Shown: positions 4,355 to 62,349 of the stretch, one piece after another | Layout of the letters: the number at the start of each line of letters is the position of its first letter | Numbering within the stretch: position 1 is the stretch's first letter | The notes under the pieces: generated by a model | Told to the model about the DNA's origin: nothing | Databases searched by the model: none | What the model saw: only the letters and a program-made list of their open reading frames with translations | Made by a program: the position numbers and the translations under genes | Origin: Rubripirellula lacrimiformis | Lineage (GTDB): Bacteria; Planctomycetota; Planctomycetia; Pirellulales; Pirellulaceae | Reading direction: 5' to 3' | Assembly: GCF_007741535.1 (NCBI RefSeq) | Contig: NZ_CP036525.1 | Coordinates: 2,480,001-2,544,000, forward strand | Length of the DNA: 64,000 nt

Positions 4355-4521
4355 CGCTTAAGGTCTTCATCGGTACCAAGCATGTCGATGACGTCTAACA
4401 GGCTTCTGTAGCGTTGGCGGCGATGTGCGCCCACGCTCGGAAAGCGCGGACCAGTGCAAACAATATTGATCGCAAAGGGATCTAGTCTGGCTGTGGCAAG
4501 CAAGTTGCGAAGCATGGTCAT
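4294..4521 (-). CDS. Small ORF of unknown function, or frameshifted 5' end of the next gene
   Basis: A 75-codon reading frame whose ATG overlaps the ptmE stop codon (ATGA at 4518-4521), the same coupling used elsewhere in this operon. It ends 61 bp inside the following gene. Residues 12-52 (RLDPFAIN, RFPSVGAHRRQR, SLLDVIDMLG) look coding in composition, while the tail after DEDLK does not. Without it there would be a 163-bp gap in an otherwise overlapping operon. It is either a real small protein, or the original N-terminus of the 477-residue gene, separated from it by a frameshift. It is not recognised. Confidence 0.3.
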   Translation of the reverse strand: MTMLRNLLATARLDPFAINIVCTGPRFPSVGAHRRQRYRSLLDVIDMLGTDEDLKRCHATQKDRHPSAFESQDRP

Positions 4522-8542: not shown

Positions 8543-8574
8543 GGCAGAACGTTGAATGGAGGGAGACAATGGTT

Positions 8575-9195
8575 CTATCGGTTGGGTCGGACGGTGCAGT
8601 CGTCGTCGACGTCACGGCGGACAATGGCACCCGCGCCGATCACACAGCGGTTGCCGATTCGGACATCTTGATGGATGATCGCCCCGCTGCCGACAAATGT
8701 GCCGTCGCCAATTCGAACGCCGCCGTTGATCAGGCTGCCCGTCGAAAGATGGCAATGGTCACCGACCGTGCATTCATGTTCGACCAACGACTTCGAATTC
8801 AATATGCAGTTCTGGCCAATTCGTGCGCCGGCATTGACCAGGCCGTGATGCATTACGATCGTGCCAGCCCCGATTGTCGTATCACCGGCAACATATGCCC
8901 ATGGTGATACAATCGTCGCGCATCTGCCGCCCGCCGAAGCGACCAGTTGGAACAACCGTTTCCGGGTCGCGGCCGTACGGATCTGTCCGACAGCAACCAG
9001 AAACGTCAGCCCATCGTCGACCAAATTTGGGATCTGGTCATCGGTATGAGTGATGGGATGCCCCGCCACGGTTCCACCAACATCGTTTGCAGCAGCAGTG
9101 ATGGCCGCGATTCGGTATTCGGCGGTTTGACCGATCACGTCGATACAGGCGGTGCAGTGGCCACCGCTTCCGATCAGTGCGATGTCCTTGATCAT
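8575..9195 (-). CDS. legH: Sugar N-acetyltransferase (LegH/PglD/NeuD family)
   Basis: A 206-residue hexapeptide acetyltransferase that acetylates the 4-amino group of the GDP-sugar. The N-terminal Rossmann-like sugar-nucleotide domain begins DIALIGSGGHC. The beta-helix follows from about residue 95, with the catalytic-histidine motif VEHECTVGDHCHLS and a final coil RIGNRCVIGAGAIVRRDV. Its ATG at 9195 shares a base with the legC stop (TGATG); a GTG at 9198 is also possible. The position between aminotransferase and synthase genes fits LegH in the legionaminic pathway. Confidence 0.87.
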   Translation of the reverse strand: MIKDIALIGSGGHCTACIDVIGQTAEYRIAAITAAANDVGGTVAGHPITHTDDQIPNLVDDGLTFLVAVGQIRTAATRKRLFQLVASAGGRCATIVSPWAYVAGDTTIGAGTIVMHHGLVNAGARIGQNCILNSKSLVEHECTVGDHCHLSTGSLINGGVRIGDGTFVGSGAIIHQDVRIGNRCVIGAGAIVRRDVDDDCTVRPNR

Positions 9196-10403: not shown

Positions 10404-11395
10404 ACGTTGTACGTCCCTGCTTTATAAAGTTTTAGGTTCGACGCATCGCGGAACCAGTCGATCGTTTGTTTCAGTCCACGACGGAGTCCGTCGTTGTCGC
10501 CATATTGCGGAACCCAGTCCGTCAATTTGGCGGCTTTGGAAGCGTCGGCACACAACCGGAATACTTCGCTCTTTTCGGGACGGATGCGTTGTTGTTCTTG
10601 TTCAATTTCAACTTCGACGGACATCAATTCGCAAATCATTGCCAGCGTGTCGGCGACTGAAATCTCGTAGCCCGTGCCTAGATTGATGACTTCACCGTTG
10701 GTGTTTTCGGAGCGCAAGATCGCTTCGAATCCGGCGGCCGTATCGGCGACGTAGTTGAAATCGCGAGTCGGGGTAAGGTCGCCCATTTTCAGTTTGGTCG
10801 CACCGGCCGCGACCTGTGCAATCACGGTCGGAATGACTGCTCGTGCCGACTGACGCGGGCCGTACGTGTTGAACGGACGTACGACTGTCACGGGCGTGTC
10901 AAAGGAACGGAAGTAAGAAAGGGCTAGTTGGTCAGCGCCAATCTTAGATGCCGAATACGGCGACTGTCCCTTCAGCGGGTGTTCTTCGTCGATGGGAACA
11001 TAGTCGGCCGTTCCATAGACTTCGCTGGTCGAAGTGTGCAAAACTTTAGCGACGTCAAAGTCGCGAGCCGCTTCCAGGACATTCAGCGTACCGTGGATGT
11101 TGGTGTCCACGTAGCTGCCGGGCGCTTGATAGCTGTAGGGGATCGCGATCAAGGCTGCCAAGTGAAGCACGGCTTCGGTACCGCGTACGGCGTGGCGAAC
11201 AAAAGTCGCATCCCGAATGTCGCCCGAGACAACTTCGATGCTGGATTTTGTTTGCTCGGGGATGGAGTCAAGCCAGCCCCACGAATTGAACGAATTGTAG
11301 GCCGCCAAGGCGCGTACGTCATAACCGCGCTGGACCAGAAGTTCAGTCAAGTGAGAACCAATGAAGCCATCGGCACCGGTGACAAGGATTTTCAT
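10400..11395 (-). CDS. legB: NAD-dependent GDP-GlcNAc 4,6-dehydratase LegB
   Basis: A 331-residue short-chain dehydrogenase/reductase of the extended type, the first committed enzyme of the legionaminic pathway. NAD-binding GADGFIGS is at residues 7-14, TSTSEVYG at 121-128, and the catalytic Tyr147-x3-Lys151 pair (YSASK). It starts with ATG at 11395 and overlaps legC by 4 bp. It is the first gene of the overlapping leg operon; upstream are hairpin repeats and a pseudogene remnant, so the operon promoter, if separate, lies in 11396-11480 or the repeats. No clear promoter was recognised. Confidence 0.92.
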   Translation of the reverse strand: MKILVTGADGFIGSHLTELLVQRGYDVRALAAYNSFNSWGWLDSIPEQTKSSIEVVSGDIRDATFVRHAVRGTEAVLHLAALIAIPYSYQAPGSYVDTNIHGTLNVLEAARDFDVAKVLHTSTSEVYGTADYVPIDEEHPLKGQSPYSASKIGADQLALSYFRSFDTPVTVVRPFNTYGPRQSARAVIPTVIAQVAAGATKLKMGDLTPTRDFNYVADTAAGFEAILRSENTNGEVINLGTGYEISVADTLAMICELMSVEVEIEQEQQRIRPEKSEVFRLCADASKAAKLTDWVPQYGDNDGLRRGLKQTIDWFRDASNLKLYKAGTYNV

Positions 11396-41218: not shown

Positions 41219-42700
41219 TTAGGATGCGATTCTCTTGCTCTTCAGCGAGGCTATGATTGCAACGGCTTGGAAACTAAGGAAATACGCGGTTGCGGCGTAG
41301 GTGATTAGCGCCCCGCCGCCTAAGGCAACGAGCTTGTAGAAAGGTGCCCAGTCTAATTGGGCTGACGCAAAATAGCAGGCAATGGAAACCAGCATTGCTA
41401 AAGCAAGGTTCGGAAGGACGTCGGATGCCTGCTCCTTTAGGGTGTATCCGAGTAGTGAGCTCGAGAAGTATGAGTTGGGGGCAAACGCCAGGAGAGAGCA
41501 AAGGATCTGCCCGTACAGGATGCCTTGGATCCCAAGCCGAAAGCTGAAAAAAAGAACTGCGGTTATCATGAGCTTCTTGAAGATTTCGAGCCCCAGGAAA
41601 AGGTCTGATCGTCCTTTGACTTTCAGCATTGCAAGGTTCACCGCGTGAACCGGATATAGCGTTTTCGCCAGGCATAGCAGCGGGAGCATTGTGGCTGCTG
41701 GTAGCCACTTGCTGTCGAGGAAAAAGACGATGAATGGGTGCGCGAGGGCTGCCAGCAGTAGCATGCACGGGAAGAGGGCGAAAGTGGTTAGCACAATCGT
41801 CTTGCGGAAACCGGATTTGAGTCGCTTGTCATCATTTTGGACGGTGGCGAGAGCTGGGTAGGTAACCGCTTGGATGCTGGTGTAGAGGTTTTGGATTACT
41901 AGGTCCGCGAGCCGAGTTGCGAAATAGTAGATCCCCGCGACAGGGCCGCTGAACACCTTCGCGATAACGACGACGTAAAGGTTGTTGAAAACTGTGTCGA
42001 GGAAACCCGAGAGGAAGAGCTTGTATCCGAAGGCGAACATCGCCTCGAACGCTGATCCGCTGACCACTGCGGTGGGGCGCCACTTCTGGAAGTGCCACAG
42101 TAGAAGTGTGCTGAGTAAAGCCGTGAGTATGGATTGAGCGACTAGCGACCAGACTCCAAATCCCTTGAGTGCAAGCCCTATCGCAAGAAGCCCCGCGATG
42201 ATCCCTGACGGCAAGTTTATTAAAACTTTTAAACGGAAGTTGAGTTCTCGGGTTAGTTGAGCCTCTTGGACCGTTCGGAGAGAGCTGATTAAGATTGAAA
42301 TTGAAGCGACGCGAATCAGTGCCGTCAGTCTCGGTTCGGCATAGAAGTTTGCAACAAGGGGGGCGGTCAAGAAAAGCAGTGCGTAGGATAAGACGCCAAA
42401 GCAGATGTTGGAGTAAAACGCAGTATTGAAGTCAACTTGCTTGGCGTCGGGGAGTCTAATGAGTGCTTGCGAGAGCCCTGAGTCCATGAGCGAGCCGCCG
42501 AGTGCAATGAACACACTCATCATCGCCACCAGTCCGTAATCTTCGGGGGCGAGTAGCCGAGCAAGGAAAATCTGGATGACGACGCCACTGCCCCTGCGGA
42601 GCAGTTGTTCGCCGAAGCTCCAGAGCACTCCACTAATCGTTCTGGATTGCAAGCTGCGCGCTGCGGCTCTGCGTTGCTGTGGTGTGTTCTCAGTGTTCAC
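41219..42700 (-). CDS. Wzx-type oligosaccharide flippase
   Basis: A 493-residue MOP-superfamily membrane protein. The N-terminus SRTISGVLWSFGEQLLRRG and ARLLAPEDYGLVAMMSVF near residue 45 are the conserved opening of WzxC/TuaB-like flippases. About a dozen hydrophobic segments follow. The start is GTG at 42700. It is the second flippase in the window. Its position next to the dTDP-sugar cassette and the large glycosyltransferase block suggests it exports the repeat unit containing the N-acylated aminosugar (inference). Confidence 0.88.
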   Translation of the reverse strand: MNTENTPQQRRAAARSLQSRTISGVLWSFGEQLLRRGSGVVIQIFLARLLAPEDYGLVAMMSVFIALGGSLMDSGLSQALIRLPDAKQVDFNTAFYSNICFGVLSYALLFLTAPLVANFYAEPRLTALIRVASISILISSLRTVQEAQLTRELNFRLKVLINLPSGIIAGLLAIGLALKGFGVWSLVAQSILTALLSTLLLWHFQKWRPTAVVSGSAFEAMFAFGYKLFLSGFLDTVFNNLYVVVIAKVFSGPVAGIYYFATRLADLVIQNLYTSIQAVTYPALATVQNDDKRLKSGFRKTIVLTTFALFPCMLLLAALAHPFIVFFLDSKWLPAATMLPLLCLAKTLYPVHAVNLAMLKVKGRSDLFLGLEIFKKLMITAVLFFSFRLGIQGILYGQILCSLLAFAPNSYFSSSLLGYTLKEQASDVLPNLALAMLVSIACYFASAQLDWAPFYKLVALGGGALITYAATAYFLSFQAVAIIASLKSKRIAS

Positions 42701-43555
42701 TATGGAAGTCGATCATCGATCTCGGAAGCCAGTCAAGTCAGGAAATGGGTTGGCTCTAGCAGAGCGGTGTTTTGCAATGGTTTCGATCAGTCCCCCGTCT
42801 TCGGCGGTAAATTATGCAGGGAGGGAGCGATCGCGATTTCTCGGCCATTGCAAAGTGTCGGCTGGGGTGAGATTTCAGTCGTTGCAAGTTCCGGGAGACG
42901 AGCTGTTCCTCCGGGTAGCGAGTGGGCGGTTGTTCGTCGTTTGGGGAAGCGGGTTTTCGCCAGTTGTGCGCCGTGCAAACGTAGAAAGGCCGCTCCCTCG
43001 TTCGTATGTGGCGGTGCAGTTTGTGGGTTCGTTCTCACGCAGACGCTGCAGAGTTGGTCGCGTAAATCGCTCTGGCACGAGGCGGGGTATTCGACTCGAT
43101 GGGCTATCAGCGAGCTACTTGGCGTGGAAAGGGTTTCAGGAAGATCGCCGGTCGTCAGGCTTTCTTGTGTCTGAACACCTCTCTGGGCTACGCCTGTCCG
43201 GTCGATACCGCTGCGGATTGATCGGAGGTGCTGCACTCCCTCGAAGAAGAGATTGGTCTGGGGTGTTATTGAGAGGTTGCAGCAGCCGACCGTGTCTCTC
43301 ATTCTGTGTCTATCAGGTATGCCTTTGTGTTTCAAAGGGGGCCGTGGTCTACTGGCGAAGTGAAGTGGCAAGCCGTGGGGGGGCGTGCCGTCGCACGGTT
43401 GGCTTAATGGAGTGCACGACGAATTTCTTGTTGCGGGAGAAGTTGAGCACCACGCTTCCTCGTCAGGCTCGGTATGTTTGTGTACCGAGTTATCACAGTG
43501 CTGGGGACTTTGGCTGCGTTCTGAGTAATCTTGAGGATTGCTGTCACGCTTCTGC
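42701..43555. other. Long gap of unresolved content between ACP and flippase genes
   Basis: An 855-bp stretch inside an otherwise compact operon. Long frames are open on both strands (for example 42787-43575 minus and 42576-43559 plus), but none looks like a protein: the minus product is polar and rich in Ser, Thr, Pro and Arg, and the plus product is rich in Arg, Ser, Cys and Val. No hairpin array is present. It may be a degraded gene or a long untranslated spacer. Confidence 0.4.
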
Positions 43556-43792
43556 CTAGTTTCGTTCGTTGACAAGGTCTGCGTAGTCGTTTACACACCT
43601 AATTGATTTGATGTCAACTCCTTCGAGTTCAATTTGGAACTTTTCCTCGATTTCAAGCATTATCGACATCTGGTCGAGCGAGTCAATGTCGTGGCTATTG
43701 AATGGGTCATGTGCTGCAATGTCTTTGAGGTCGTCCCGTTTGGTTGCATTGACGATGCACTCAACAATTGTTTTGTTGATATCTGTCTCCAT
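43556..43792 (-). CDS. Acyl carrier protein
   Basis: A 78-residue acidic carrier protein. The phosphopantetheine attachment serine is Ser38 in HDIDSLDQMSIMLEIEE, followed by the usual acidic helix. It is 2 bp after the KAS III gene, so they are one unit. In this cassette it probably carries the acyl chain that the LpxD-like enzyme transfers to the dTDP-aminosugar. It is too far from any fatty-acid operon signal to be the housekeeping AcpP, which lacks a sugar context (inference). Confidence 0.9.
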   Translation of the reverse strand: METDINKTIVECIVNATKRDDLKDIAAHDPFNSHDIDSLDQMSIMLEIEEKFQIELEGVDIKSIRCVNDYADLVNERN

Positions 43793-43794
43793 GT

Positions 43795-44745
43795 TTACTT
43801 GCTCCGTTTGAGTGTAGTTACAAAACTTGAGAGGCCAACTCCAAATCCGGCTAAGAGCAGGTTCGTGGGGGGGGCTGTTTCCTCCTGTAGTACCTTCGCC
43901 AGCATTAGTGGGATCGATGAACTCACGGTGTTACCGGTTGTCTCGGCAGTAAATGCTATCTTAGAGGGTTCGGCGTGAATTGCTGCCGCTAGTGTCTCAA
44001 CAATGAATTTGCTCCCCTGGTGAATTAGGAAGCGGTCGATCTGGTCAATCGTTAATCCATTCTCGTAGAGACAGTCGTTGATCTCTCTGGGGACATGTTT
44101 CGCAACAAAACGAAATACGTCGCTGCCGTTCATCGAAAGTGTTCGTCTCGGATTGTCAATCGTTCTGATTGCATTGCTGTGTTTGCTGTCAGTTAGATAC
44201 CTGGATCTGCCCAGGGTGTATTTTGGATTTGACGAGATTAAAGTGCATGTCGCGCCATCTCCGAAAAGCAGTGCCGTGTCTCGGTCTGATGGGCTAACGA
44301 CTGCTGAGTAGGGGTCGGCGGTAAATAATAAGCCGTTTTTTATGCCGTTCTCTCGCATGAAGCCGATCATGATGGAGGCCCCGTGCACGAATCCCGTGCA
44401 GCCTAGGGAGATGTCAAAGCAGGCGATTCTTTTAGACAGCCCAAGTTTCTGATGGACGATTGAGCTTGTGTGAGGTATCCCGCCAGCGTCTGGGTTTTGC
44501 GTAACTACTGCTAAGCATCCGATCTCTGGATGGATGTGGCATTGTTCGGCGAAGTCTTCATGTGCTGACACGCACATGTCGGAGGTCATTTCGCAGTCGG
44601 GCTTTCTCGCCAGTTTCGTGAACCCGAGCTTTTTGCTCACGAAACCGTCAGTTGCTCCAAGTTTGTGTCCAAGCTCAAGCGTGTCAAGACGCGCACTTGG
44701 GAGATAGCATCCGACTTTCTCGATTCCTAGTTTATTGTTGACCAA
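43795..44745 (-). CDS. 3-oxoacyl-ACP synthase III-like enzyme (KAS III family)
   Basis: A 316-residue thiolase-fold enzyme. The catalytic triad is Cys116 (SLGCTGFVHG), His242 (FLIHQGSKF) and Asn272 (TTGNTVSSS), so it should be active. It would condense a CoA-activated starter with malonyl-ACP to make a short 3-oxoacyl chain on the adjacent carrier protein. The start is TTG at 44745, overlapping the preceding gene by 14 bp. KAS III-like genes also occur in viosamine-modification clusters of Pseudomonas syringae flagellin glycans (established precedent for this gene context). Confidence 0.88.
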   Translation of the reverse strand: MVNNKLGIEKVGCYLPSARLDTLELGHKLGATDGFVSKKLGFTKLARKPDCEMTSDMCVSAHEDFAEQCHIHPEIGCLAVVTQNPDAGGIPHTSSIVHQKLGLSKRIACFDISLGCTGFVHGASIMIGFMRENGIKNGLLFTADPYSAVVSPSDRDTALLFGDGATCTLISSNPKYTLGRSRYLTDSKHSNAIRTIDNPRRTLSMNGSDVFRFVAKHVPREINDCLYENGLTIDQIDRFLIHQGSKFIVETLAAAIHAEPSKIAFTAETTGNTVSSSIPLMLAKVLQEETAPPTNLLLAGFGVGLSSFVTTLKRSK

Positions 44746-45295
44746 AGTACAGCGATCCTATTTTTTCGTCGTTGCAAAGTAGTTTAGCTTCAAAGAACTG
44801 TTTGCCGATCTTGCGGCGGTGCTCAATCACGCATGATCCACCTATCGGTACGGAGTCGGCCCTCACGCGTCCGAAGATCAGCTTTCCCATTTTTCCGTCA
44901 TCGGTGCCTTCGAGCATCGCTTTGTATGTCGCCACGACGTATTCTATATAGGTTGCAGAATCGACCAAAGGGAAGCAGAACAGCCCTGAAGTGGAGTTGA
45001 AGTTCACAGTACTCAGGATTTGCTGTTCGTTGCAGTTGTACCGCTCCAAAATCGGTTCGTCTGTCTCTACAAGGTAAACCGTTTTGTGAGAACTTCGGTA
45101 CGTCGCAACAAGTCTGTCAGTTTGAGATGGCTTGCTCGAAACGTTCGCGTGATTTCCAGTAAATGTGTGGAACTGGAAGTCAATGTTCGTAGGGTTTACG
45201 AGACTTTCGGTAATCCAGTCGAAAACTGTTGTAGCCGATAAGTACTTTCTATTTCCCCTTAGTCTGAACCTTGGATTTGAGCTGGGAGTGTCCAT
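44732..45295 (-). CDS. Unknown protein of the acyl-sugar cassette
   Basis: A 187-residue soluble protein, not recognised. No signal peptide, membrane segment or catalytic motif stands out. The N-terminal NRKYLSATTVFDWI segment and the alternating hydrophobic pattern suggest a mixed alpha/beta, possibly hotdog-like, domain, which would fit a dehydratase or thioesterase acting on ACP-bound chains (speculative). The gene overlaps the acyltransferase gene by 47 bp and the KAS III gene by 14 bp, so it is firmly part of this unit. Confidence 0.75.
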   Translation of the reverse strand: MDTPSSNPRFRLRGNRKYLSATTVFDWITESLVNPTNIDFQFHTFTGNHANVSSKPSQTDRLVATYRSSHKTVYLVETDEPILERYNCNEQQILSTVNFNSTSGLFCFPLVDSATYIEYVVATYKAMLEGTDDGKMGKLIFGRVRADSVPIGGSCVIEHRRKIGKQFFEAKLLCNDEKIGSLYFGQQ

Positions 45296-46289
45296 TGTTT
45301 TTTACATATGCTTTGAGGTTTGCGGTGTGTGGTATCGCGAAATTGCCGGAGACGTCTCCGTATGACGGTACGTCACCTATGACTACAGAGCCGATTCGGA
45401 TTCTTGCGTTGTTGCTTATTTCACAGCCTTCGGAGACAATCGAGCCGGCGCCGATCCAGGAGTTTTCGCCGATGACTACACGCCCGCAAATGCAAGCCGT
45501 CGACGCGATAGTGCAATTGTTGCCAATTTGGCAATCGTGGCCGACGTTTGAGGATATGCCAATTGACACATCGCTTCCGATTGTCGTGCAGTTTTGGAAA
45601 TGAGGAGCAGCGGCTACATTGGCACGGGCATGGATATGGCTGTTGGGGCCAACCGTAAGTCCTCCATAGTACTCAAAGGCTTCAAGTTGTCCCTCGATTT
45701 GTTTTGCGAACAATCCTCGTGTGCCTAGCGTGGCTAGTTCTTCAATTCTTGTGTTTGGTCCAATGTAGGTAGGGCCTGAAATGATCGAGTATGGGCCGAC
45801 CTCTACATTGTGGTCAAGGAAGACAGGTCCTCGGATGATTGCGGTTGAATCAACCTTCGCGGACGGTGAGACAAAGGGGCTTGGATCCCTTGAATCGTAG
45901 CAGTGCTTGTGAATCGCTAGGTTGTGAAGGCGGTGAAACCACTCGCCTGCTTTCGTTGAAACTATCGTGGGCTTGTCTGGAGTTATCCCAAGTGCATCGA
46001 CTGATTGTTGGTCGGTGAAAACAAGGTGGACATTGCTGTTTGACAATGCCATTTGGAGCCATTTCGAATTTCCCGCGAATACGGCTGATCCTGGGACCTC
46101 GGTGAAACAATAGGATGTTTGGCTTGCGTGCGTTGGTGAATCTAGTCGGTGACCTGTTTCTGTGGTGACGCCGAGTAAATTTAGAATTTCTGTCGGGCTG
46201 TATGTTTGCGCCCGAGCGGGTTTGATAAACGCACGCCATCTGCGATACGCTTCGGTGTCGTTTTTAGGAAGTGAATTTGGGCTCGGCAT
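45249..46289 (-). CDS. LpxD-like hexapeptide N-acyltransferase
   Basis: A 346-residue left-handed beta-helix enzyme. An N-terminal region of about 120 residues is followed by hexapeptide coils from about residue 128 (PSAKVDSTAIIRGPVFLD) to 320. SSNVGHDCQIGNNCTI holds the histidine placed like the catalytic His of LpxD. LpxD enzymes transfer acyl chains from ACP to an amino sugar nucleotide, and here an ACP and a KAS III are encoded just downstream. ATG 46289 has GGAA six bases upstream and was preferred over TTG 46301. It most likely acylates the 4-amino group made by the VioA-like enzyme. Confidence 0.82.
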   Translation of the reverse strand: MPSPNSLPKNDTEAYRRWRAFIKPARAQTYSPTEILNLLGVTTETGHRLDSPTHASQTSYCFTEVPGSAVFAGNSKWLQMALSNSNVHLVFTDQQSVDALGITPDKPTIVSTKAGEWFHRLHNLAIHKHCYDSRDPSPFVSPSAKVDSTAIIRGPVFLDHNVEVGPYSIISGPTYIGPNTRIEELATLGTRGLFAKQIEGQLEAFEYYGGLTVGPNSHIHARANVAAAPHFQNCTTIGSDVSIGISSNVGHDCQIGNNCTIASTACICGRVVIGENSWIGAGSIVSEGCEISNNARIRIGSVVIGDVPSYGDVSGNFAIPHTANLKAYVKNNGHSQLKSKVQTKGK

Positions 46290-46301
46290 CACGTTTTCCA
46301 A

Positions 46302-47438
46302 TCAAAAGGTTTTGGTGGTCCCAGTTGAGTCTTCCGCCGAGGAAATTAAGTCGGCCACTTCATCAACTTGTTTGTTCAATAATGACGGGTAAATCGGCAG
46401 GCAAATTATGTTTTCGGCAGCAGTTCGAGCTGATTTTAGTTGCGTTCGATTTTCGTCGACTAGCTTTGAGTACATTGGCAGGTCGCAAATCAAGGGATGG
46501 AAATAGCGGCGGCCATTTATGCCTGCATCTTTCAGTTTCTGGTATAGCTCATCGCGGGACAAAGGGTACTCCATGTTGACCATGATCGGCATGTAAGATG
46601 CGTTGCCGATCGTGTCAGCGGGGTCTGGCAGCAATGTGATGCCCGGGATGTTCACCAGTGCGTTGCGATATCTTGCTTCGGTTTGCCGACGCCGTTTGAT
46701 TGCATTGTCGATTGTCTTTAATTGCAGTAATCCCAGGGCGGCGTTGAATTCGCTCATTTTGCCATTGATTCCCGTCTCCATCACGGTGGTCTCGTCAGCG
46801 AAACCAAAGTTTTTGAGATGGTCGATTCGCTGCTTGATTTCAGCGTTCGGGCAAATTATCGCGCCGCCTTCAAATGTGTTAAACACTTTAGTTGCGTGGA
46901 AACTCAGGACGGACAAGTCTCCGTGCCGTAGCACGCTTTCGCCTTTATGCTTTACGCCGAACGCGTGTGCAGCGTCGTAAATGACCTTTAGGCCATGTGT
47001 GTTAGCTATCTGCTGGATGCGTTCGGTATTGCAAGGGTTTCCGTAGCAGTGAACCGGTAGGATAGCCGTAGTGCGTGGCGTAATTGCTTCTTCGATTCGT
47101 TCAGGATCAAGATTGCAGGTTGCGGGGTCAATGTCGACGAAAACCGGTTCGATGTTGTTCCACACTAATGAGTGCGCCGTTGCAACGAATGAGTAGGGCG
47201 TGGTAATCACTTCGCCTTTGATTTTCAGGGCTTGCAGTGCAGTGATTAATGCGATTGTTCCGTTGTTGAACAAGGCCACATGTTCGACGTCGAGATACTC
47301 GCAGAGCGCTTCTTCGAGTTGTTTGTGGAAGGGGCCATTGTTCGTAAGGATTTTGCTTTTCCAGATCTTTTCAAGATAAGGAATGAACTCTTCTAAAGGT
47401 GGCAGCGATGGCTGGGTTACATAGATCGGTTTCTTCAT
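46302..47438 (-). CDS. vioA: dTDP-4-amino-4,6-dideoxyglucose aminotransferase (VioA-like)
   Basis: A 378-residue PLP enzyme of the DegT/DnrJ/EryC1 family. VTQPSLPPLEEFIPYL and LTNNGPFHKQLEEAL are features I associate with the VioA subgroup. Catalytic Lys184 lies in SFHATKVFNTFEGG, with Asp155 in IYDAAHAFG. It would convert the 4-keto sugar from RmlB to dTDP-4-amino-4,6-dideoxyglucose (viosamine nucleotide). The frame is open to a GTG at 47540, but the ATG at 47438 matches the family N-terminus. RmlA lies 113 bp upstream. A 3-aminotransferase role (FdtB-like) cannot be fully excluded. Confidence 0.85.
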   Translation of the reverse strand: MKKPIYVTQPSLPPLEEFIPYLEKIWKSKILTNNGPFHKQLEEALCEYLDVEHVALFNNGTIALITALQALKIKGEVITTPYSFVATAHSLVWNNIEPVFVDIDPATCNLDPERIEEAITPRTTAILPVHCYGNPCNTERIQQIANTHGLKVIYDAAHAFGVKHKGESVLRHGDLSVLSFHATKVFNTFEGGAIICPNAEIKQRIDHLKNFGFADETTVMETGINGKMSEFNAALGLLQLKTIDNAIKRRRQTEARYRNALVNIPGITLLPDPADTIGNASYMPIMVNMEYPLSRDELYQKLKDAGINGRRYFHPLICDLPMYSKLVDENRTQLKSARTAAENIICLPIYPSLLNKQVDEVADLISSAEDSTGTTKTF

Positions 47439-47551
47439 GGCGAGATTGTGGCTGTGTTTTTGTTGTTGGGTTTGCGGTTTGGTATAGACCTTGGTGGTGC
47501 GATCGCCGCAATGCCATGTTCCGTATGCGTCCACCTTCACGCTTAGTTTCT

Positions 47552-48463
47552 TTACTTGCCAAGCAATGACTGTAGATAAGTTCCGTACGCAGTGTTCTTG
47601 AATTTTGAGGCTTGGTCTGCTAACTCGCTTTCGGTAATCCAGCCATTGTGGAAGCCGATTTCTTCTAGGCAGGCAACCTTGAAGCCTTGATGGTGTTCAA
47701 TCGTCTTCACAAACATGGATGCCTCTAGCAAGCTGTCATGCGTGCCCGTGTCAAGCCACGTGTGGCCTCTTCCCAGGACTTCAACACTCAGAGACGCTTC
47801 TTCCAAGTAACATCGATTGATGCAAGTGATCTCTAGTTCTCCTCGTGCTGAGGGCTTAATTGACTTGGCAAATTCAATGACGCGGTTGTCGTAGAAATAC
47901 AGGCCGGTCACCGCGAAATCTGATTTGGGTGTGGCCGGCTTCTCTTCGATCGAAATCGCTTTGCCGGCGCTGTTGAATTCGATGATGCCGAATCGCTCGG
48001 GGTCGTGAACCTGGTACCCGAACACGGTCGCGCCGGATGTTTGCTCGGCTGCCGTTTTTAGTTTTGGCGAGAATCCCTGCCCGTAGAAAATGTTATCGCC
48101 CAGTACCAAGGTGACGGGATCGTCGCCGATAAATTCCTCGCCAATCAGAAAGGCCTGCGCCAAGCCTTCTGGTCTGGGTTGTTCGGCATACGTTAGCGAG
48201 ATGCCGAAGTCGCTGCCATCGCCGAGCAGTTTGCGGTACTGGGGCAGGTCTTCCGGCGTGGAAATGATCAGCGTTTCCCGAATTCCCGCCAGCATCAATA
48301 CGGACAATGGATAGTAGACCATCGGCTTGTCGTAGATCGGCAGTAGTTGCTTGCTGATGCCGCGTGTGACCGGGTGCAGACGCGTTCCCGAACCGCCCGC
48401 CAGGACGATGCCCTTGCGGATTGTCGCGGTTGAGTTCGGTGTGGGGCGTTGTGAGATTGGCAT
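47552..48463 (-). CDS. rmlA: Glucose-1-phosphate thymidylyltransferase
   Basis: A 303-residue nucleotidyltransferase making dTDP-glucose. The signature [15 protein letters not shown] is at residues 19-33, with [26 protein letters not shown] and the EEKP motif following. Length and motifs match RmlA/RfbA. It starts with ATG at 48463. With rmlB 265 bp upstream and the aminotransferase 113 bp downstream it supplies the dTDP sugar of this cassette. No rmlC or rmlD lies in the window, so rhamnose synthesis is not implied. Confidence 0.95.
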
Positions 48464-48728
48464 GGCGAATGGGGCGTGGGGGCTTTGGGCGTGGCGCTTG
48501 GATTGCGATTTCCATTCGCAGGTGGTTCGCTGCGGCAGTGATGCGTCGTAGCGATTGGGTTGCCCACAGCGGGTGGGCGCCCGGTCTGGCCCGGAGGCAG
48601 GAGTGTGATGTGGTTGGTTCGGGCGTTGATTGGTGATTGGGACCGGGCGTTGACGCGGTGGGTGATTGGGGACCGGACGCTAGCGCGTGGCGGCTGATGG
48701 CTGTTGTGGTGATAGGGTTGGTGGTTGG
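48464..48728. other. Spacer between rmlB and rmlA with a short direct repeat
   Basis: 265 bp without a gene. At about 48632-48688 two copies of a roughly 28-bp unit (GGTGATTGGGACCGGGCGTT / GGTGATTGGGGACCGGACGC) lie in tandem. Confidence 0.5.
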
Positions 48729-49781
48729 CTAGTTTCCTAGACGCTGCAGTTGGTACTGGCCGGAGAGGATTTCTTGCCACCAGGATTCGTTTTCGAGGTA
48801 CCACTGGACGGTTTTTCGAAACCCCGACTGGTTGTCCTGCTGAGGACGCCAACCCAGTTCGTTTTTGATTTTGCTGGCGTCAATCGCGTAGCGGGCGTCG
48901 TGGCCGGGGCGGTCGGTGACGAACGTGATCAGCTGGGAATGTTCGCTGATCGTGGGCGACGCGCTGGGGCGGAGTTCGTCCATCAATTGGCACAACAGGT
49001 GCACCAGATCGATGTTCCGCATCTCGTTGTCGCCGCCAATGTTGTAGGTCTGGCCCGGACGCCCTCTTTCGACCACCGCCAATAGGGCTCGGCAATGATC
49101 GTCGACGTACAACCAGTCCCGTATGTTTTCGCCCTTGCCGTACACGGGAATCGATTCGCCGCGTAGGCATTTCAGGATCACGACCGGGATCAGCTTTTCG
49201 GGGAACTGGAATGGCCCGTAGTTGTTGCTGCAATTGGTCACCAGCACGGGCAGCCCGTAGGTATCGGACCAGGCGCGAGCCAGGTGATCCGACGATGCTT
49301 TGCTGGCCGAATACGGCGAATGAGGATCATAAGGAGTCGTTTCGCTGAACTGCCCTTCACTGCCCAGGGATCCGTACACTTCGTCGGTCGAAACGTGCAA
49401 GAAACGAAACGCGTCCGCTGCGTCGGAATCCAGCGATCGCCAATGCGACAGGCTAGCCTGCAATAGGTTGTAGGTGCCGATGACGTTGGTTTCGATGAAC
49501 TGGCCGGGACCATCAATCGACCGATCCACATGACTCTCGGCCGCCAAGTGCATCACGGCATCGGGAGCGAACTCGGCCAAGCACTGTTGGACTGCGTCGG
49601 CGTCGGTGATGTCAACTTGGGCGAATCGGTAACCGGATTGGTCGGCGATGTCGGCCAACGAGGATAGGTTGCCGGCATAGGTCAGCGAGTCCACGTTCAG
49701 GACGTCGTGACCCTGTTGGACTGCCATCCGAACCAGGTTGGATCCGATGAATCCGGCGCCGCCGGTGATCAGGATTTTCAT
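48729..49781 (-). CDS. rmlB: dTDP-glucose 4,6-dehydratase
   Basis: A 350-residue extended SDR enzyme. [13 protein letters not shown] begins at residue 3, [15 protein letters not shown] near 81, [10 protein letters not shown] near 130 and the catalytic PYSASK near 158. It makes dTDP-4-keto-6-deoxyglucose for the VioA-like enzyme. The frame extends to 49877, but ATG 49781 starts the family motif. An intergenic gap of 828 bp upstream suggests a new transcription start here. Confidence 0.95.
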
Positions 49782-50609: not shown

Positions 50610-53357
50610 TTAATCAGGAGCGGGGAGCGAGTTCGTCAGGGGGGAGGTGAGCGTTTGTTTGAGCGCTCGCTCGTCAGCCGTGATCGGCAGTGACAGTATC
50701 TCCATCGCTCGCGTGAGGACTTTGGGGTCCTGTTCGGTCGGTGGCATCGAGTTTTGCAGGCGGGCAGCGTCCAGTATCAGTTGACGCTGGCGGGCCATCA
50801 GCACGCTGCTGCGTTGTGCGTCATCGATCGAATTGCCGCTGTCTTGCGGCGGCAACAACTGGTTCAGTCGGATCGGCCATTGGCGTTTTCGAAGTTGTTG
50901 GATCACGGCCGGTAGACCACTCGGGTCCAGAGCCAGCATTCGTTGCCAGGCGTGGATCGCGATCGGCGTGTCCTGGATGTCCAACGCTGCCCGCGCGATA
51001 CTATCGAGCGCCGACGGGGATTGGCCACGCAGCACGGACAGCTGGTCCAGCAGCACGCGGCAGGTTTCCGCGGGCGTGCCGGTCAGGTCCAATTGGACCA
51101 GATTCCAGCGAGCGATTTCCGATAGCGGGTTGGCCTCCAAGGCTTGGCGACTGAGTGCGGCGATCGATTCCAGCCGTGGGTCACGGTCGAGCGGTGGATC
51201 GCCAAATTTTGATCCCGACAATAGCGACGACGGACCGCCGCGAAGCGTGACCCAGCGGATTCGATGTGGGCGGGTCAACAGGGACGCTTGTTCGGCAGAA
51301 ACGCCTTGTGTTGTGAGGGCCTGAATACGTTCGGACCGAAACAACAACCGCAGCACGCGAATGCGTTCCAGCATCAGCGGTTCACAATCCGGATACCGCT
51401 GGATCGCCAGATCCAGTTCGCGATCGATCGATTGCAAATTCGCGTATTGCACGGAGGTCAGGGTGCCGGGGGTGGACGTGCCGGATCCGCTGCCGCTTGC
51501 GTCTGTAAGCCATTGGCTGTGCCGCTGTAGTGAGTCGGCGGACGCGATCGCGGCGGCGCGGTTGGTCGACAAAATCAGTCCGGCGATGATCAGGACCGGT
51601 ACCACCATCAGCATCAGGCTGCGGGTTTGCGACGGGGCAATGAACAAGCTTTGGAATTCTTCGAACCACTCCTCCGAGTCCGAATTGGTGACAGGGGACC
51701 TTCGTTCGCCAGCCGGGCGCCCGTGTGGCGATCCAGAGGTGGAGCTGGGATGAATTCCCTGCGAGTTTGTTTGGCGGTGCGGCGCGTTTTCGGTAGCTCG
51801 TTGACGGATTCGGGCAAACCGTTGATCGTGGGAAGGGTCGCGTCGCTGCCGTGGGGCGGCGGGAGTTTGGCGAGCGTGAACGGCTGCGGCCAACAGGGTT
51901 GCCGTCATCGCGATCGGCGGAAGCGTCAGGGCAAAGTCGAATGTTTGCGACGTCGCGATCGCGGTGGTGGCAAAAATACCGGCGAGCGCCAGTCCATAGT
52001 CGATCGGGTCGCTGGTTCGCAGCAATCGTCGAAATGCGACGATGGTGCCGATGCCGGCGGCCAGCAAGATCAGCGCCATCGCCAGGCCGCCTTCGACGAG
52101 CCATTCCAGCCATTGGTTGTCTGCGTTTCGGTACCAATTGCCGCCACCGGTTGCTTGGAACGGCAGATAGGCATAGCGATAGGCGCCCATCCCACCACCA
52201 ATCGGAAACGACGCCAATGCCGAACGCCATGCATCGGGCCAGTGCCCAGCACGACCATCGCCAACCGGGTCGCCGGTGTGGTTTTCCAGCAGGCGGTCCA
52301 CTGCGGTGGTTTCGATGCCTGCCGCCCCCAACGTCACCATTGCAATCGCGAACATCACTACAACCGCAAAAACCACGATGGGCAGCCGGCGTGATGAAGC
52401 AACCGTGATCACACAAATTGTTGCACCACAGGCGGAACCCAATAAGGCACCGCGCGAACCGCAGGCGACGATCGCGGCACTGATGAACACGGTGGCCAGG
52501 ACGATCATCCACCAAGAAACACTCTGTGCCATCCGGTGAAAGTGACTGAATCCTCCAAATTTGTGACTGACCATCCCGTCGCTAGAACGGCGGTTACGCG
52601 ATCGATACACCAGCAACCCGACGGCGGCGGCCAAACCTAAGTTCAGCATCGCGCCGGCGTTGTTACGGTTGATAAACGTGCCAAAGGGGTGCCCGATTCG
52701 TCGGTCTCCGAACAGAAATACACCCGGGGAAACCACGGATTGATAGAACCCCAATGCCGAATGGACCACGCCGACGATTGCCATGCCGATCATCATCAAC
52801 AGCACCAGATGACGGTGACGAAAGATCGTGCCAGCCACGTAAGCCATGGCAGCCATGACCATCGCGAAGGCCGCAAAATTCTTGGTCAACCAAGCTGATA
52901 CCGAAACGGGAAAGCTTTGTGGTGCCGGCTGGCCGGTGGCTTGGGGCAGCCATTGGGTGAACGCGTCGGCGGACGCCGGTGATAGGGACCACACGGTGCC
53001 GGAGTCTAGCGGAATCGATTGGGCCAGGGCCAGCAAACCGATAGCTGCCCACAGCACCATCGGCGATCGTTGCAGTCCGCGTTCTAGCGTTTCGGTGACG
53101 TAGTGTTGGACAATCGCAGCGGGCGACGCATTGATGAACGGTGCGGACGGGGTGCGGCGAGGGGGACAGGCGGATTGGACGAACCAAGTTGCAATCACCA
53201 GCGCCATGACCGCCACGCTAGATATCCACAGGTCCCAAGGCAATAATCCACCGCAATCCAACGCAACCAACCCCGGCACCGCTACGGTAGCGCATGCGGT
53301 CAGCGTCATCAGGTTGTGTCGCAGCATTGCGAGCGAATCGATTGGCAAAAGCGTCAT
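50610..53357 (-). CDS. O-antigen polymerase/ligase with C-terminal TPR region
   Basis: A 915-residue inner-membrane protein, paralogous to the one at 12260-14884: shared landmarks are GTFINRNNAGAMLNLGLAA, CGSRGALLG, DGRAGHWPDAWRSALASF and RNADNQWLEWLVEGG. About twelve hydrophobic segments precede a soluble region of about 400 residues with weak TPR-like helices. A low-complexity linker rich in Arg, Pro and Ser lies near residues 495-560. It begins with ATG at 53357, 22 bp after the NusG-like gene, and so is the first structural gene of the locus. It probably polymerises or ligates the polysaccharide. Confidence 0.85.
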   Translation of the reverse strand: MTLLPIDSLAMLRHNLMTLTACATVAVPGLVALDCGGLLPWDLWISSVAVMALVIATWFVQSACPPRRTPSAPFINASPAAIVQHYVTETLERGLQRSPMVLWAAIGLLALAQSIPLDSGTVWSLSPASADAFTQWLPQATGQPAPQSFPVSVSAWLTKNFAAFAMVMAAMAYVAGTIFRHRHLVLLMMIGMAIVGVVHSALGFYQSVVSPGVFLFGDRRIGHPFGTFINRNNAGAMLNLGLAAAVGLLVYRSRNRRSSDGMVSHKFGGFSHFHRMAQSVSWWMIVLATVFISAAIVACGSRGALLGSACGATICVITVASSRRLPIVVFAVVVMFAIAMVTLGAAGIETTAVDRLLENHTGDPVGDGRAGHWPDAWRSALASFPIGGGMGAYRYAYLPFQATGGGNWYRNADNQWLEWLVEGGLAMALILLAAGIGTIVAFRRLLRTSDPIDYGLALAGIFATTAIATSQTFDFALTLPPIAMTATLLAAAVHARQTPAAPRQRRDPSHDQRFARIRQRATENAPHRQTNSQGIHPSSTSGSPHGRPAGERRSPVTNSDSEEWFEEFQSLFIAPSQTRSLMLMVVPVLIIAGLILSTNRAAAIASADSLQRHSQWLTDASGSGSGTSTPGTLTSVQYANLQSIDRELDLAIQRYPDCEPLMLERIRVLRLLFRSERIQALTTQGVSAEQASLLTRPHRIRWVTLRGGPSSLLSGSKFGDPPLDRDPRLESIAALSRQALEANPLSEIARWNLVQLDLTGTPAETCRVLLDQLSVLRGQSPSALDSIARAALDIQDTPIAIHAWQRMLALDPSGLPAVIQQLRKRQWPIRLNQLLPPQDSGNSIDDAQRSSVLMARQRQLILDAARLQNSMPPTEQDPKVLTRAMEILSLPITADERALKQTLTSPLTNSLPAPD

Positions 53358-54330: not shown

Positions 54331-55767
54331 ATGAGTAACAGTGGCAAGGATGCTGCTTCGAAACAGAAGCAATCAATGACTCAAGGTGAACAGCTGGCCA
54401 AAGCGATTCGCTGGATCGCCAACGACCAATTATTCGCAAAGGTTCGTGTTCACGGCAATGCCAATTGGGTGCCGACTCACTTGATGCAGGTCGCAATTCT
54501 ATGGGTTTGGAGTAGTCAATCATTGCTCGTCGAATCCACCAAAGACGCGATCAAAAGTGTCGAGAGCTTATTCGGTACGACCGGGATTCATTCGTATCAG
54601 ACGCTGATCACTGCACTGCAGAAGTACACCGAGCAAATCCTTCCGCCACTGGTCCAACGAATGCATCATTTGATGGAGAAGACAGATCAAGCAAGTTTTC
54701 GCATCGGGATTTGGTTGGTGTTGGCCGTCGACGGTTCCCGCTTGGATGCTTGCCGAACCCTGGCCAACGAGAAGCGGTTCTGCAAGCCAAAGAACAAAAG
54801 GGGATCGAAGAAGAACAAGAAGAACAAGCGTGGTCGACACGCCAACAAACGAAAACCGGTGAGCAAAAAGAAGAACTACAATCCGCAGCCCGTCGGTCCT
54901 CAAGTCTGGCTTACGCTACTGTGGCATGTCGGACAGCGATTGCCATGGGCATGGAAAATCGGACCGAGTTATTCCAGCGAACGAGCCCATCTGTTGGAAA
55001 TGCTGAATGCTTTAGACCTACCGAAAAACACGCTCATCTGCGGTGATGCTGGTTTCGTCGGCTACGACTTTTGGAACGCGATCGACAGCCACGGCCATCA
55101 CTTCCTGACGCGTGTCGGAAGCAATTGTCGCTTCCTGAAGCAACTTGGACGGGTTCGCGAACGTGATGGCATCGTGTACTGCTGGCCGAAAGAAAAACAG
55201 CAACGCAAGCAGCCGCCGTTGGTCCTTCGGCTACTTCGCTTTCACGACGGACGTGGCGAAGTCTATCTCGTCACCAACGAATTGAACTTACGCAAGTTAA
55301 GTGATTCGCGTGCTGGGGAAATTTATCGAAAACGCTGGGGAATCGAAGTGCAATTCCGATCCTTAAAGCAAACTTACGGTCGTTCGAAACTGCTCGGGCG
55401 AACGCCGGATGTCGTCGAGCACGAGTTAACCTGGTCGCTTGTCGGTCTTTGGATGGCGCAGTTACTGGCGCTTCGCGAACAAATCGATCGGATCGAACCG
55501 GCGGCTCAAACGAGCGTCGCGATGGTGTTACGAATATTGCAAAACATCCTGCACTGCCCCAACGAGATACCCGCGCGGGGCGAATCGCTTCGGAGTCTCT
55601 TGGCCGGTGCGTTGACGGATACATACGACCGCGCAAGTAAAAAGAAAAGTCGCAACTACCCACGCCGAAAAGAGGAACCCCGGACCGGCCCACCCACAAT
55701 TGAACTCGCCACCCCAGAGCAACAGAAGCTTGCCAAAGCTACACTGGACCTCTCAAATGCAGCATGA
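54331..55767 (+). CDS. IS4-family DDE transposase (copy 1)
   Basis: 478 residues. The DDE residues are Asp134 (LAVDGSRLDA), Asp239 (LICGDAGFVGYD) and Glu339. The last lies in the IS4 signature Y-(2)-R-(3)-E-(6)-K: Tyr332, Arg335, Glu339, Lys346. A lysine-asparagine tract near residues 157-170 (KKNKKNKRG) is six residues shorter than in copy 2. Both copies appear intact. The protein cuts and joins its own element at the terminal repeats. The product is well separated in base use from the surrounding GC-rich repeats. Confidence 0.95.
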   Translation: MSNSGKDAASKQKQSMTQGEQLAKAIRWIANDQLFAKVRVHGNANWVPTHLMQVAILWVWSSQSLLVESTKDAIKSVESLFGTTGIHSYQTLITALQKYTEQILPPLVQRMHHLMEKTDQASFRIGIWLVLAVDGSRLDACRTLANEKRFCKPKNKRGSKKNKKNKRGRHANKRKPVSKKKNYNPQPVGPQVWLTLLWHVGQRLPWAWKIGPSYSSERAHLLEMLNALDLPKNTLICGDAGFVGYDFWNAIDSHGHHFLTRVGSNCRFLKQLGRVRERDGIVYCWPKEKQQRKQPPLVLRLLRFHDGRGEVYLVTNELNLRKLSDSRAGEIYRKRWGIEVQFRSLKQTYGRSKLLGRTPDVVEHELTWSLVGLWMAQLLALREQIDRIEPAAQTSVAMVLRILQNILHCPNEIPARGESLRSLLAGALTDTYDRASKKKSRNYPRRKEEPRTGPPTIELATPEQQKLAKATLDLSNAA

Positions 55768-60745: not shown

Positions 60746-62349
60746 CAACGCCGTTAAGGAAATTTTTCATGCTGCATTTGAGAGGTCCAGTGTAGCTTTG
60801 GCAAGCTTCTGTTGCTCTGCGGTGGCGAGTTCAATTGTGGGTGGGCCGGTCCGGGGTTCCTCTTTTCGGCGTGGGTAGTTGCGACTTTTCTTTTTACTTG
60901 CGCGGTCGTATGTATCCGTCAACGCACCGGCCAAGAGACTCCGAAGCGATTCGCCCCGCGCGGGTATCTCGTTGGGGCAGTGCAGGATGTTTTGCAATAT
61001 TCGTAACACCATCGCGACGCTCGTTTGAGCCGCCGGTTCGATCCGATCGATTTGTTCGCGAAGCGCCAGTAACTGCGCCATCCAAAGACCGACAAGCGAC
61101 CAGGTTAACTCGTGCTCGACGACATCCGGCGTTCGCCCGAGCAGTTTCGAACGACCGTAAGTTTGCTTTAAGGATCGGAATTGCACTTCGATTCCCCAGC
61201 GTTTTCGATAAATTTCCCCAGCACGCGAATCACTTAACTTGCGTGAGTTCAATTCGTTGGTGACGAGATAGACTTCGCCACGTCCGTCGTGAAAGCGAAG
61301 TAGCCGAAGGACCAACGGCGGCTGCTTGCGTTGCTGTTTTTCTTTCGGCCAGCAGTACACGATGCCATCACGTTCGCGAACCCGTCCAAGTTGCTTCAGG
61401 AAGCGACAATTGCTTCCGACACGCGTCAGGAAGTGATGGCCGTGGCTGTCGATCGCGTTCCAAAAGTCGTAGCCGACGAAACCAGCATCACCGCAGATGA
61501 GCGTGTTTTTCGGTAGGTCTAAAGCATTCAGCATTTCCAACAGATGGGCTCGTTCGCTGGAATAACTCGGTCCGATTTTCCATGCCCATGGCAATCGCTG
61601 TCCGACATGCCACAGTAGCGTAAGCCAGACTTGAGGACCGACGGGCTGCGGATTGTAGTTCTTCTTTTTGCTCACCGGTTTTCGTTTGTTGGCGTGTCGA
61701 CCACGCTTGTTCTTCTTGTTCTTCTTGTTCTTCTTGTTCTTCTTCGATCCCCTTTTGTTCTTTGGCTTGCAGAACCGCTTCTCGTTGGCCAGGGTTCGGC
61801 AAGCATCCAAGCGGGAACCGTCGACGGCCAACACCAACCAAATCCCAATGCGAAAACTTGCTTGATCTGTCTTCTCCATCAAATGATGCATTCGTTGGAC
61901 CAGTGGCGGAAGGATTTGCTCGGTGTACTTCTGCAGTGCAGTGATCAGCGTCTGATACGAATGAATCCCGGTCGTACCGAATAAGCTCTCGACACTTTTG
62001 ATCGCGTCTTTGGTGGATTCGACGAGCAATGATTGACTACTCCAAACCCATAGAATTGCGACCTGCATCAAGTGAGTCGGCACCCAATTGGCATTGCCGT
62101 GAACACGAACCTTTGCGAATAATTGGTCGTTGGCGATCCAGCGAATCGCTTTGGCCAGCTGTTCACCTTGAGTCATTGATTGCTTCTGTTTCGAAGCAGC
62201 ATCCTTGCCACTGTTACTCATAGCCAGGCTCCTTTTCTTTCGACGATGTAGTCGAGGATTTTGGGGGGAGCCTGGCTTATTTCATTTATGGCCCTCCAAA
62301 AGCTATCCTGGTTACCTAATTCACTCGAAAAATTTCCTTAACGGCGTTG
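60746..62349 (-). mobile_element. IS4-family insertion sequence, copy 2
   Basis: 1604 bp, inverted relative to copy 1. Perfect 23-bp terminal inverted repeats (60746-60768 and 62327-62349). The same 9-bp duplication CCCCTCACC flanks it (60737-60745 and 62350-62358), and again the target is the outer arm of a hairpin repeat. It is 20 bp longer than copy 1: 18 bp from two extra copies of a 9-bp coding repeat and 2 bp from the intact end. Both ends look functional. Confidence 0.93.
60767..62221 (-). CDS. IS4-family DDE transposase (copy 2)
   Basis: 484 residues, nearly identical to copy 1. The catalytic Asp, Asp and Glu and the Y-(2)-R-(3)-E-(6)-K signature are all kept. It differs by six extra residues in the Lys/Asn tract near residue 160, one Leu-to-Ser change (ELNSRKL) and one Pro-to-Ala change near the end. 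The stop codon overlaps the inner edge of the terminal repeat. It is probably the more active copy because its ends are intact. Confidence 0.95.
   Translation of the reverse strand: MSNSGKDAASKQKQSMTQGEQLAKAIRWIANDQLFAKVRVHGNANWVPTHLMQVAILWVWSSQSLLVESTKDAIKSVESLFGTTGIHSYQTLITALQKYTEQILPPLVQRMHHLMEKTDQASFRIGIWLVLAVDGSRLDACRTLANEKRFCKPKNKRGSKKNKKNKKNKKNKRGRHANKRKPVSKKKNYNPQPVGPQVWLTLLWHVGQRLPWAWKIGPSYSSERAHLLEMLNALDLPKNTLICGDAGFVGYDFWNAIDSHGHHFLTRVGSNCRFLKQLGRVRERDGIVYCWPKEKQQRKQPPLVLRLLRFHDGRGEVYLVTNELNSRKLSDSRAGEIYRKRWGIEVQFRSLKQTYGRSKLLGRTPDVVEHELTWSLVGLWMAQLLALREQIDRIEPAAQTSVAMVLRILQNILHCPNEIPARGESLRSLLAGALTDTYDRASKKKSRNYPRRKEEPRTGPPTIELATAEQQKLAKATLDLSNAA

Follow-up and report, generated by a model that had tools for sequence, protein, structure and literature searches.

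The closest described system found for the gene cassette treated here is the modified-viosamine island of Pseudomonas syringae pv. tabaci, which, according to passages of its published account, comprises vioA, vioS, vioR, vioB, acp, vioM and vioT and has matching genes in P. aeruginosa PAK (PMC3927599). The same passages describe VioS as a β-ketoacyl-acyl carrier protein synthase III (KAS III) and VioR as a ketoreductase, both encoded in the island together with the acyl carrier protein (ACP), and give the acyl group as 3-hydroxy-1-oxobutyl (C4). Without VioR, flagellin no longer carried the modified viosamine, and an N-acetoacetyl intermediate is named by the authors (PMC3927599). Genes for 3-hydroxybutanoyl sugars of O-antigens and capsules, namely FdhC and QdhC and the lgaHI and psaGH modules, appear in passages of two further papers (PMC4869667, PMC9676051). 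The cassette in question lies in a 64,000-nucleotide (nt) stretch of the Rubripirellula lacrimiformis genome (NZ_CP036525.1, positions 2,480,001 to 2,544,000; hereafter the window, with positions counted from its first letter) and consists of genes for RmlB, RmlA, a DegT/DnrJ aminotransferase, a putative N-acyltransferase of the LpxD class with a left-handed β-helix (LBH), a 187-residue protein encoded by an open reading frame (ORF) called ORF187 here, a KAS III and an ACP. With a probability of roughly 0.7, this cassette directs the biosynthesis of an N-acylated dTDP-aminosugar destined for a surface glycan, the acyl chain being made by KAS III, ORF187 and the ACP and transferred by LBH. All seven genes had been named in a preliminary description of the window and were found again at the positions collected in Table 1.

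With the P. syringae island, as far as its account was available, the cassette shares the conjunction of dTDP-4-amino-4,6-dideoxyglucose (here the expected product), KAS III, a small ACP and an acyltransferase (PMC3927599). The KAS III and ACP genes stand in one operon with the gene of a dTDP-sugar 4-aminotransferase, whose product is assigned from its family. By contrast, P. syringae has VioR (253 aa) and VioB (213 aa), and the island table in its account contains no protein of the ORF187 type (PMC3927599), whereas the window cassette has ORF187, a reductase in 0/7 of its proteins and an LpxD-class acyltransferase of 350 aa with an N-terminal domain. The small size of VioB, the island table and a family profile for LBH that ranks LpxD first bear out the earlier remark that neither the acyltransferase nor the 187-residue protein matches what is known from P. 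syringae. The FdhC/QdhC and lgaHI/psaGH systems resemble the cassette in that an unusual short N-acyl group is placed on dideoxyaminosugars or nonulosonates, but the passages concerned name transferase genes or sugar modules (PMC4869667, PMC9676051); the words “ketoacyl” and “FabH” are absent from the available text of PMC4869667, and “carrier protein” from that of PMC9676051. A literature search over titles and abstract openings, with few subscription journals covered, returned no paper describing this gene set.

RmlA and RmlB would, judging from their families, supply dTDP-4-keto-6-deoxyglucose, which the aminotransferase would convert to dTDP-4-amino-4,6-dideoxyglucose. For the preliminary label “VioA-like”, “DesI/VioA-type” is the better name, the top NCBIfam model being DesI (298 bits, below its cut-off of 650). 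The nearest PDB chain is 2po3 (5.4e-65; title “4-dehydrase”), which we take to be DesI. DesI and VioA both yield dTDP-4-amino-4,6-dideoxyglucose, so that this sugar is a fair expected product. KAS III, together with ORF187 as its usual partner, may then build and tailor a short β-oxygenated acyl chain on the dedicated ACP. The chain would most likely be C4, either acetoacetyl or something derived from it, for instance 3-hydroxybutyryl; this length is favored because a P. veronii relative of the KAS III (41% identity) adjoins genes annotated as acetoacetyl-CoA reductase and polyhydroxybutyrate polymerase, and because sugars of this kind are known to bear 3-hydroxybutanoyl groups. Finally, LBH would move the chain from the ACP to the C4 amine, as its class and the gene order suggest.

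ORF187 belongs to a real protein family that is missing from Pfam and NCBIfam: ORF187 itself had no family match in either database, and ten further members, making 11 tested, gave no credible one (best E 0.005, below the cut-off of the family concerned). Single-sequence searches with ORF187 returned only itself among 197 relatives and no match in the genome-contig collection, viral contigs or plasmids (tblastn). Against PDB sequences there were two chance matches near E 1, and with the family profile a single one at chance level (E 1.2), while four proteins had no match in PHROGs. Nonetheless, the idea of a true orphan was rejected, since a KAS III scan brought relatives. The entry point was a tblastn search of plasmids with LBH, which led to a Pontibrevibacter plasmid where genes for an ACP, an LBH, an unassigned 203-residue protein, a KAS III, FdtA and a DegT protein are adjacent; the KAS III of this plasmid is also the best match of the window KAS III among plasmid proteins (46%). 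An all-against-all comparison of KAS loci then grouped together a set of proteins encoded just upstream of KAS III, most of them about 185-230 residues long. A hidden Markov model (HMM) of 43 such relatives, built with the window left out, matches ORF187 at 9.3e-34 and finds it as the sole match in the window (six-frame stretches of at least 50 residues, E limit 10). The plasmid relative P0003 has no BLASTP match to ORF187 and is linked to it through the family HMM only. The family link and the gene set are more than chance, because the window-free HMM finds ORF187 alone and because the set recurs in other phyla, as came out of the gene-neighborhood search that the preliminary description had suggested.

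This recurrence was assessed in loci (numbered with L) obtained by scanning a genome-contig collection, one genome per species for 84,980 species, with two KAS III sequences. The best 80 of 118 confirmed scan loci and the plasmid loci L007, L010 and L011 make up 83 KAS loci; the plasmid loci L008, L009 and L012 were dropped for want of a KAS match. Since the scan was keyed to KAS motifs common to the window and one plasmid, the counts are not prevalence estimates. ORF187 (>100 bits) is present in 41 of the 83 loci, from ten named phyla, and 39 of these 41 are distinct, given two near-duplicate pairs (L007/L043 from one species, and L017/L018 with the same matches throughout); some contigs counted as lacking ORF187 start too near the KAS gene to judge (L053, L066). 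In 37/41 loci no more than 150 nt separate ORF187 from the KAS III gene downstream of it, and an ACP-like ORF, recognized by its serine motif, is near in 36/41. An LBH gene was found within 3.5 kb in 35/41 loci with ORF187 vs 3/42 without it (Fisher p 9e-14). Because ORF187 loci had supplied the sequences for the LBH model, the count was redone with a bare hexapeptide pattern: at least three repeats occur in 30/41 vs 1/42 loci (p 2e-12), four repeats in 17 vs 1 and five in 9 vs 0, at a stringency where the window's own LBH would fail already at three. Within the Planctomycetota, ORF187 occurs in 1/392 sampled genomes, that of the window itself, and in two metagenome-assembled genomes from another collection (L013, L014). 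In locus L050, a 616-nt gap upstream of KAS III was considered as the site of a decayed ORF187, with no match found.

The sugar genes that accompany the set differ from locus to locus, and comprise those for dTDP-4-amino, dTDP-3-amino or pseudaminic-type sugars. Among ten partner aminotransferases tested, WecE (L036, L044) and PseC (L062, L063, L090) score above their NCBIfam cut-offs; the PseC loci also contain NeuB-type genes, and L062 and L063 a cytidylyltransferase. L057 and L058 pair a DesI-like DegT protein with RmlA and RmlB, the Thiomicrorhabdus locus L058 having the order rmlB-rmlA-DegT-ORF187-KAS-ACP-LBH-Wzx, while L007 and L082 combine FdtA with a DegT protein of its own kind. That the KAS III and ACP genes are lipid or polyketide genes merely neighboring the sugar genes, with LBH adding plain acetyl, is very unlikely. 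Two Pirellulaceae loci (L004, L006) do have KAS III-ACP pairs beside genes read here as alcohol-dehydrogenase-like and small lipocalin-like, with neither ORF187 nor a sugar gene within 3.9 kb. However, the cassette genes of the window overlap, the acyltransferase is of the LpxD class and not of the NeuD/VioB class, and aminosugar genes are found in 33/41 loci with ORF187 vs 11/42 without, a count for which the reference sequences were partly taken from ORF187 loci.

A ketoreductase is one of the parts that the window cassette does not share with P. syringae: no FabG-like ketoreductase was identified by Pfam or NCBIfam among its seven genes. Across the loci, FabG-like short-chain dehydrogenase/reductases (SDRs) occur in 0/41 with ORF187 vs 4/42 without (L010, L041, L072, L083; Fisher p 0.12), two of these four having supplied the SDR queries, so that an exclusion between SDR and ORF187 is suggestive only. 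One of them, L041, combines KAS III, an ACP-like ORF, the SDR, a hexapeptide protein, an FdtA-like gene and a DegT gene.

The KAS III triad Cys116, His242 and Asn272 is invariant in 84/84 aligned KAS sequences, the window included, and the serine column of the ACP in 36/36 small ORFs downstream of KAS III, again including the window, which were chosen without the serine motif (6/41 ORF187 loci have no small ORF after KAS III). Related KAS III genes were also seen in other arrangements. In Desulfuromonadales-type loci (L019, L028, L035, L052, L060) one follows a gene that we read as acetate-kinase-like, and in six Bacteroidota loci (L085-L089, L092) a DegT gene and, in our reading, a NeuD-like protein accompany two genes each for KAS III and for a small ACP-like protein, which makes a further aminosugar-like cluster with KAS and ACP genes but with ORF187 absent.

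For LBH, a profile of 25 cassette sequences matches LpxD structures best in the PDB (8.4e-50), with QdtC (2.7e-30) and VioB (8.1e-24) farther down, and aligns to both the N-terminal domain and the β-helix of the LpxD chains 4e75 and 4ihg; His255 is conserved in 25/25. The window protein alone first matched the NeuD/PglB/VioB model in NCBIfam (95 bits, cut-off 161) and LpxA in the PDB, and a NeuD/VioB-type assignment was given up as the family profile puts LpxD closer. A canonical LpxD is encoded elsewhere in the genome (318.6 bits, above cut-off), which makes LBH an additional and divergent representative of its class. With LpxD it shares the N-terminal domain followed by the left-handed β-helix, the conserved histidine and the best PDB profile match, but it differs in its sub-cut-off score and in being encoded with dTDP-sugar genes.

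How the parts diverge relative to one another was compared over 23 loci with all four parts in the alignments (300 shuffles). Pairwise identities correlate for KAS III-ORF187 (ρ 0.72), ORF187-ACP (0.65) and KAS III-ACP (0.53), with 0/300 shuffles reaching the value in each case, whereas the correlations with LBH are low (KAS III 0.18, 12/300 shuffles; ORF187 0.17, 6/300; ACP 0.09, 39/300). LBH follows the aminotransferase class: over 22 loci with aminotransferase classes assigned in this analysis (1000 shuffles), LBH identity is 0.318 within vs 0.260 between classes (0/1000), while KAS III barely follows the classes (0.495 vs 0.481, 68/1000) and ORF187 somewhat (0.269 vs 0.242, 15/1000). These divergence patterns suggest that KAS III, ORF187 and the ACP form an acyl-supply core that is transferable as such, and that LBH is the exchangeable, sugar-facing part, swapped to fit the sugar. 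The preliminary description had proposed that KAS III and the 187-residue protein build a chain on the ACP, which the LpxD-like enzyme adds to the sugar. Comparative sequence evidence lends support to this proposal: the set recurs beside different aminosugar pathways, its three core members co-diverge, and the LBH profile matches LpxD best over both domains.

Several observations weigh against assigning the cassette to N-acylation of an aminosugar. No aminosugar gene is within reach in 8/41 ORF187 loci, including L013 and L014, which are nearest to the window by the KAS tree but lie on short contigs, and 11/42 loci without ORF187 have such genes too. A first, cruder clustering gave a less sharp contrast for LBH-type proteins (35/42 vs 10/41), in a cluster that also contained some glycosyltransferases. 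The window KAS III scores below the FabH cut-off (160.9 vs 292.1 bits, NCBIfam), as LBH does for the curated LpxD model (TIGR01853, 69.6 vs 242.5 bits), and the KAS III clade has members in other gene contexts, with the ORF187 label changing 14 times on a quick KAS III tree (shuffled mean 27.6). As to the correlations, co-divergence can reflect joint transfer and not contact, shared descent and alignment noise could explain part of the pattern, and the values for LBH are possibly lowered because its alignments are noisy.

The fold of ORF187 bears on its role in acyl supply. AlphaFold2 with 44 family members predicts two helix-and-sheet units with high confidence (predicted local distance difference test 94, predicted template modelling score 0.89); a model made without the alignment reached only 43 on the former scale and was set aside. 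Foldseek returned five PDB chains at E <=0.001 (best 4.1e-4), and the 50 matches listed are enzymes of hotdog type, judged by their titles or known folds, among them polyketide synthase (PKS) dehydratase domains, TesB, FatA and MaoC-like hydratases; viral models gave no match at E <=0.001. With TMq at 0.50 or less and a large root-mean-square deviation, only the fold class is settled, and at that level the predicted double-hotdog-type fold is assigned with confidence. Of the two folds suggested earlier for this protein, hotdog thus agrees with both the model and Foldseek, while the SDR fold was rejected. A profile comparison (hhalign) of the ORF187 family with FabZ and MaoC sets detected no relation, in a weak test whose FabZ-MaoC control scored 1.1% (one FabZ row in the wrong frame, L101, was retained, and two overlong MaoC rows, L111 and L112, were omitted).

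In the 44-sequence alignment Glu90, Lys125 and Phe184 are invariant, Arg16, Tyr18 and Gly180 nearly so, and Glu118 is kept in 37/44 with Asp in three more. The best histidine columns reach only 52% and 50%, and the window protein has Ser at position 20. As no His column exceeds 52%, the usual dehydratase His/Asp dyad is absent, and ORF187 as a canonical hotdog dehydratase is not supported. ORF187 is thus like the double-hotdog enzymes (PKS dehydratase domains, TesB, MaoC-type hydratases) in fold class, but unlike them in having no conserved dyad and in its short, 187-residue form. Four Helicobacteraceae loci (L065, L070, L078, L080) have two tandem ORF187 copies, the upstream one with Arg in place of Glu118; in L065 the downstream copy is split in two pieces.

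We tentatively propose that ORF187 represents a novel family of enzymes, compact proteins of double-hotdog form in which an invariant Glu/Lys pair substitutes for the His/Asp dyad. ORF187 would turn the β-ketoacyl-ACP made by KAS III into an acyl group unrecorded on sugars and so replace a ketoreductase. Together with KAS III and the ACP it may constitute a general core, present in at least ten phyla and combined with sugar-specific LpxD-class transferases for dTDP-4-amino, dTDP-3-amino and nonulosonic-acid sugars. A non-catalytic ORF187, assisting KAS III structurally or in carrier docking, is possible although doubtful; acetoacetyl would then be moved unchanged or reduced by housekeeping FabG, to give an ordinary N-acetoacetyl or N-(3-hydroxybutyryl) sugar. 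The tight tracking of KAS III (ρ 0.72) and the missing classical dyad are consistent with such a partner, as are the 3-hydroxybutanoyl aminosugars that passages of two papers record from several bacteria (PMC9676051, PMC4869667). Against it, the invariant Glu90 and Lys125 and the near-invariant Arg16 and Tyr18 resemble a functional site more than a docking face. Furthermore, housekeeping reduction is insufficient in P. syringae, since the vioR mutant in the available part of its account lost the modified viosamine (PMC3927599). An unlikely alternative makes ORF187 a priming enzyme, either a hotdog decarboxylase of malonyl-ACP or a similar substrate, or an acyl loader, which would feed KAS III instead of tailoring its product. 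The double-hotdog-like fold of ORF187 and its co-divergence with KAS III and the ACP suit this role, and passages of one paper describe MadA and MadB as hotdog proteins that decarboxylate malonyl-ACP, and name LmnK, a double hotdog, as a decarboxylase of methylmalonyl-ACP (PMC8666670). However, nothing resembling the catalytic Asn loop of MadB is apparent in the ORF187 alignment, where the best Asn column (124) reaches 64% and the window has Tyr. Moreover, KAS III enzymes normally take their primer from acyl-CoA.

If the proposal of a tailoring ORF187 within a general core is right, sugar decoration in many phyla would follow a plug-in principle, with one acyl-making trio and exchangeable transferases. 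It would also account for the presence in polysaccharide loci of KAS III and ACP genes, which might otherwise pass for stray lipid genes, and offer a first clue to function for a protein family that neither Pfam nor NCBIfam models. N-acyl groups would become predictable from gene content, and the genes could serve as parts for glycan engineering.

Table 1. Cassette genes and other features of the window.
Feature	Position	Strand	Basis or remark
rmlB, dTDP-glucose 4,6-dehydratase	48729..49781	-	NCBIfam TIGR01181, 484 bits (cut-off 365)
rmlA, glucose-1-phosphate thymidylyltransferase	47552..48463	-	NCBIfam TIGR01207, 490 bits (cut-off 361)
DegT/DnrJ aminotransferase, DesI/VioA type	46302..47540	-	PF01041, 352 bits
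LBH, LpxD-class left-handed β-helix N-acyltransferase (putative)	45249..46301	-	Pfam Hexapep, LpxD-like family profile, His255
ORF187, 187 residues	44732..45295	-	Family HMM, 44-sequence alignment, AlphaFold2 model, Foldseek
KAS III, TTG start	43795..44745	-	PF08541 and PF08545, both above cut-off
ACP, Ser38 in IDSLD	43556..43792	-	PF00550, 39 bits (cut-off 20.8)
Wzx-type flippase, downstream	41219..42700	-	PF13440, 280 bits; likely glycan exporter, by association only
Wzy/O-antigen-ligase-like protein, upstream	50610..53357	-	PF04932, 60.5 bits; association only
Nonulosonic-acid gene row	4518-11395	-	Legionaminic-type in our reading
DDE_Tnp_1 transposase	54331-55767	+
DDE_Tnp_1 transposase	60767-62221	-

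Within the cassette, the last five genes overlap or abut, as described earlier: the gap between the aminotransferase and LBH genes is 0 nt, the overlap of LBH with ORF187 is 47 nt and that of ORF187 with KAS III 14 nt, and KAS III and ACP are 2 nt apart. The rmlB ORF extends to 49877 in the ORF list, with the Met at 49781 as the likely start. Besides the flippase and the Wzy-like protein, a NusG-like protein is encoded upstream and glycosyltransferases farther downstream, and these surroundings place the cassette within a surface-glycan locus. The G+C content has its minimum at 44-48 kb (0.49-0.50); it is about 0.53 between 36 and 44 kb and 0.58-0.59 between 48 and 54 kb. The flippase and ACP genes are separated by roughly 850 nt (42701-43555) with no evident gene, no search having been made with the ORFs listed there.

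Elsewhere in the window, the nonulosonic-acid row encodes a CBS-linked nucleotidyltransferase, a cytidylyltransferase, a UDP-GlcNAc 2-epimerase, NeuB, a hexapeptide protein of its own, a DegT protein and a dehydratase/epimerase, with a KAS III or an ACP in 0/7 of these proteins. The two transposases lie upstream of the glycan locus, on opposite strands.

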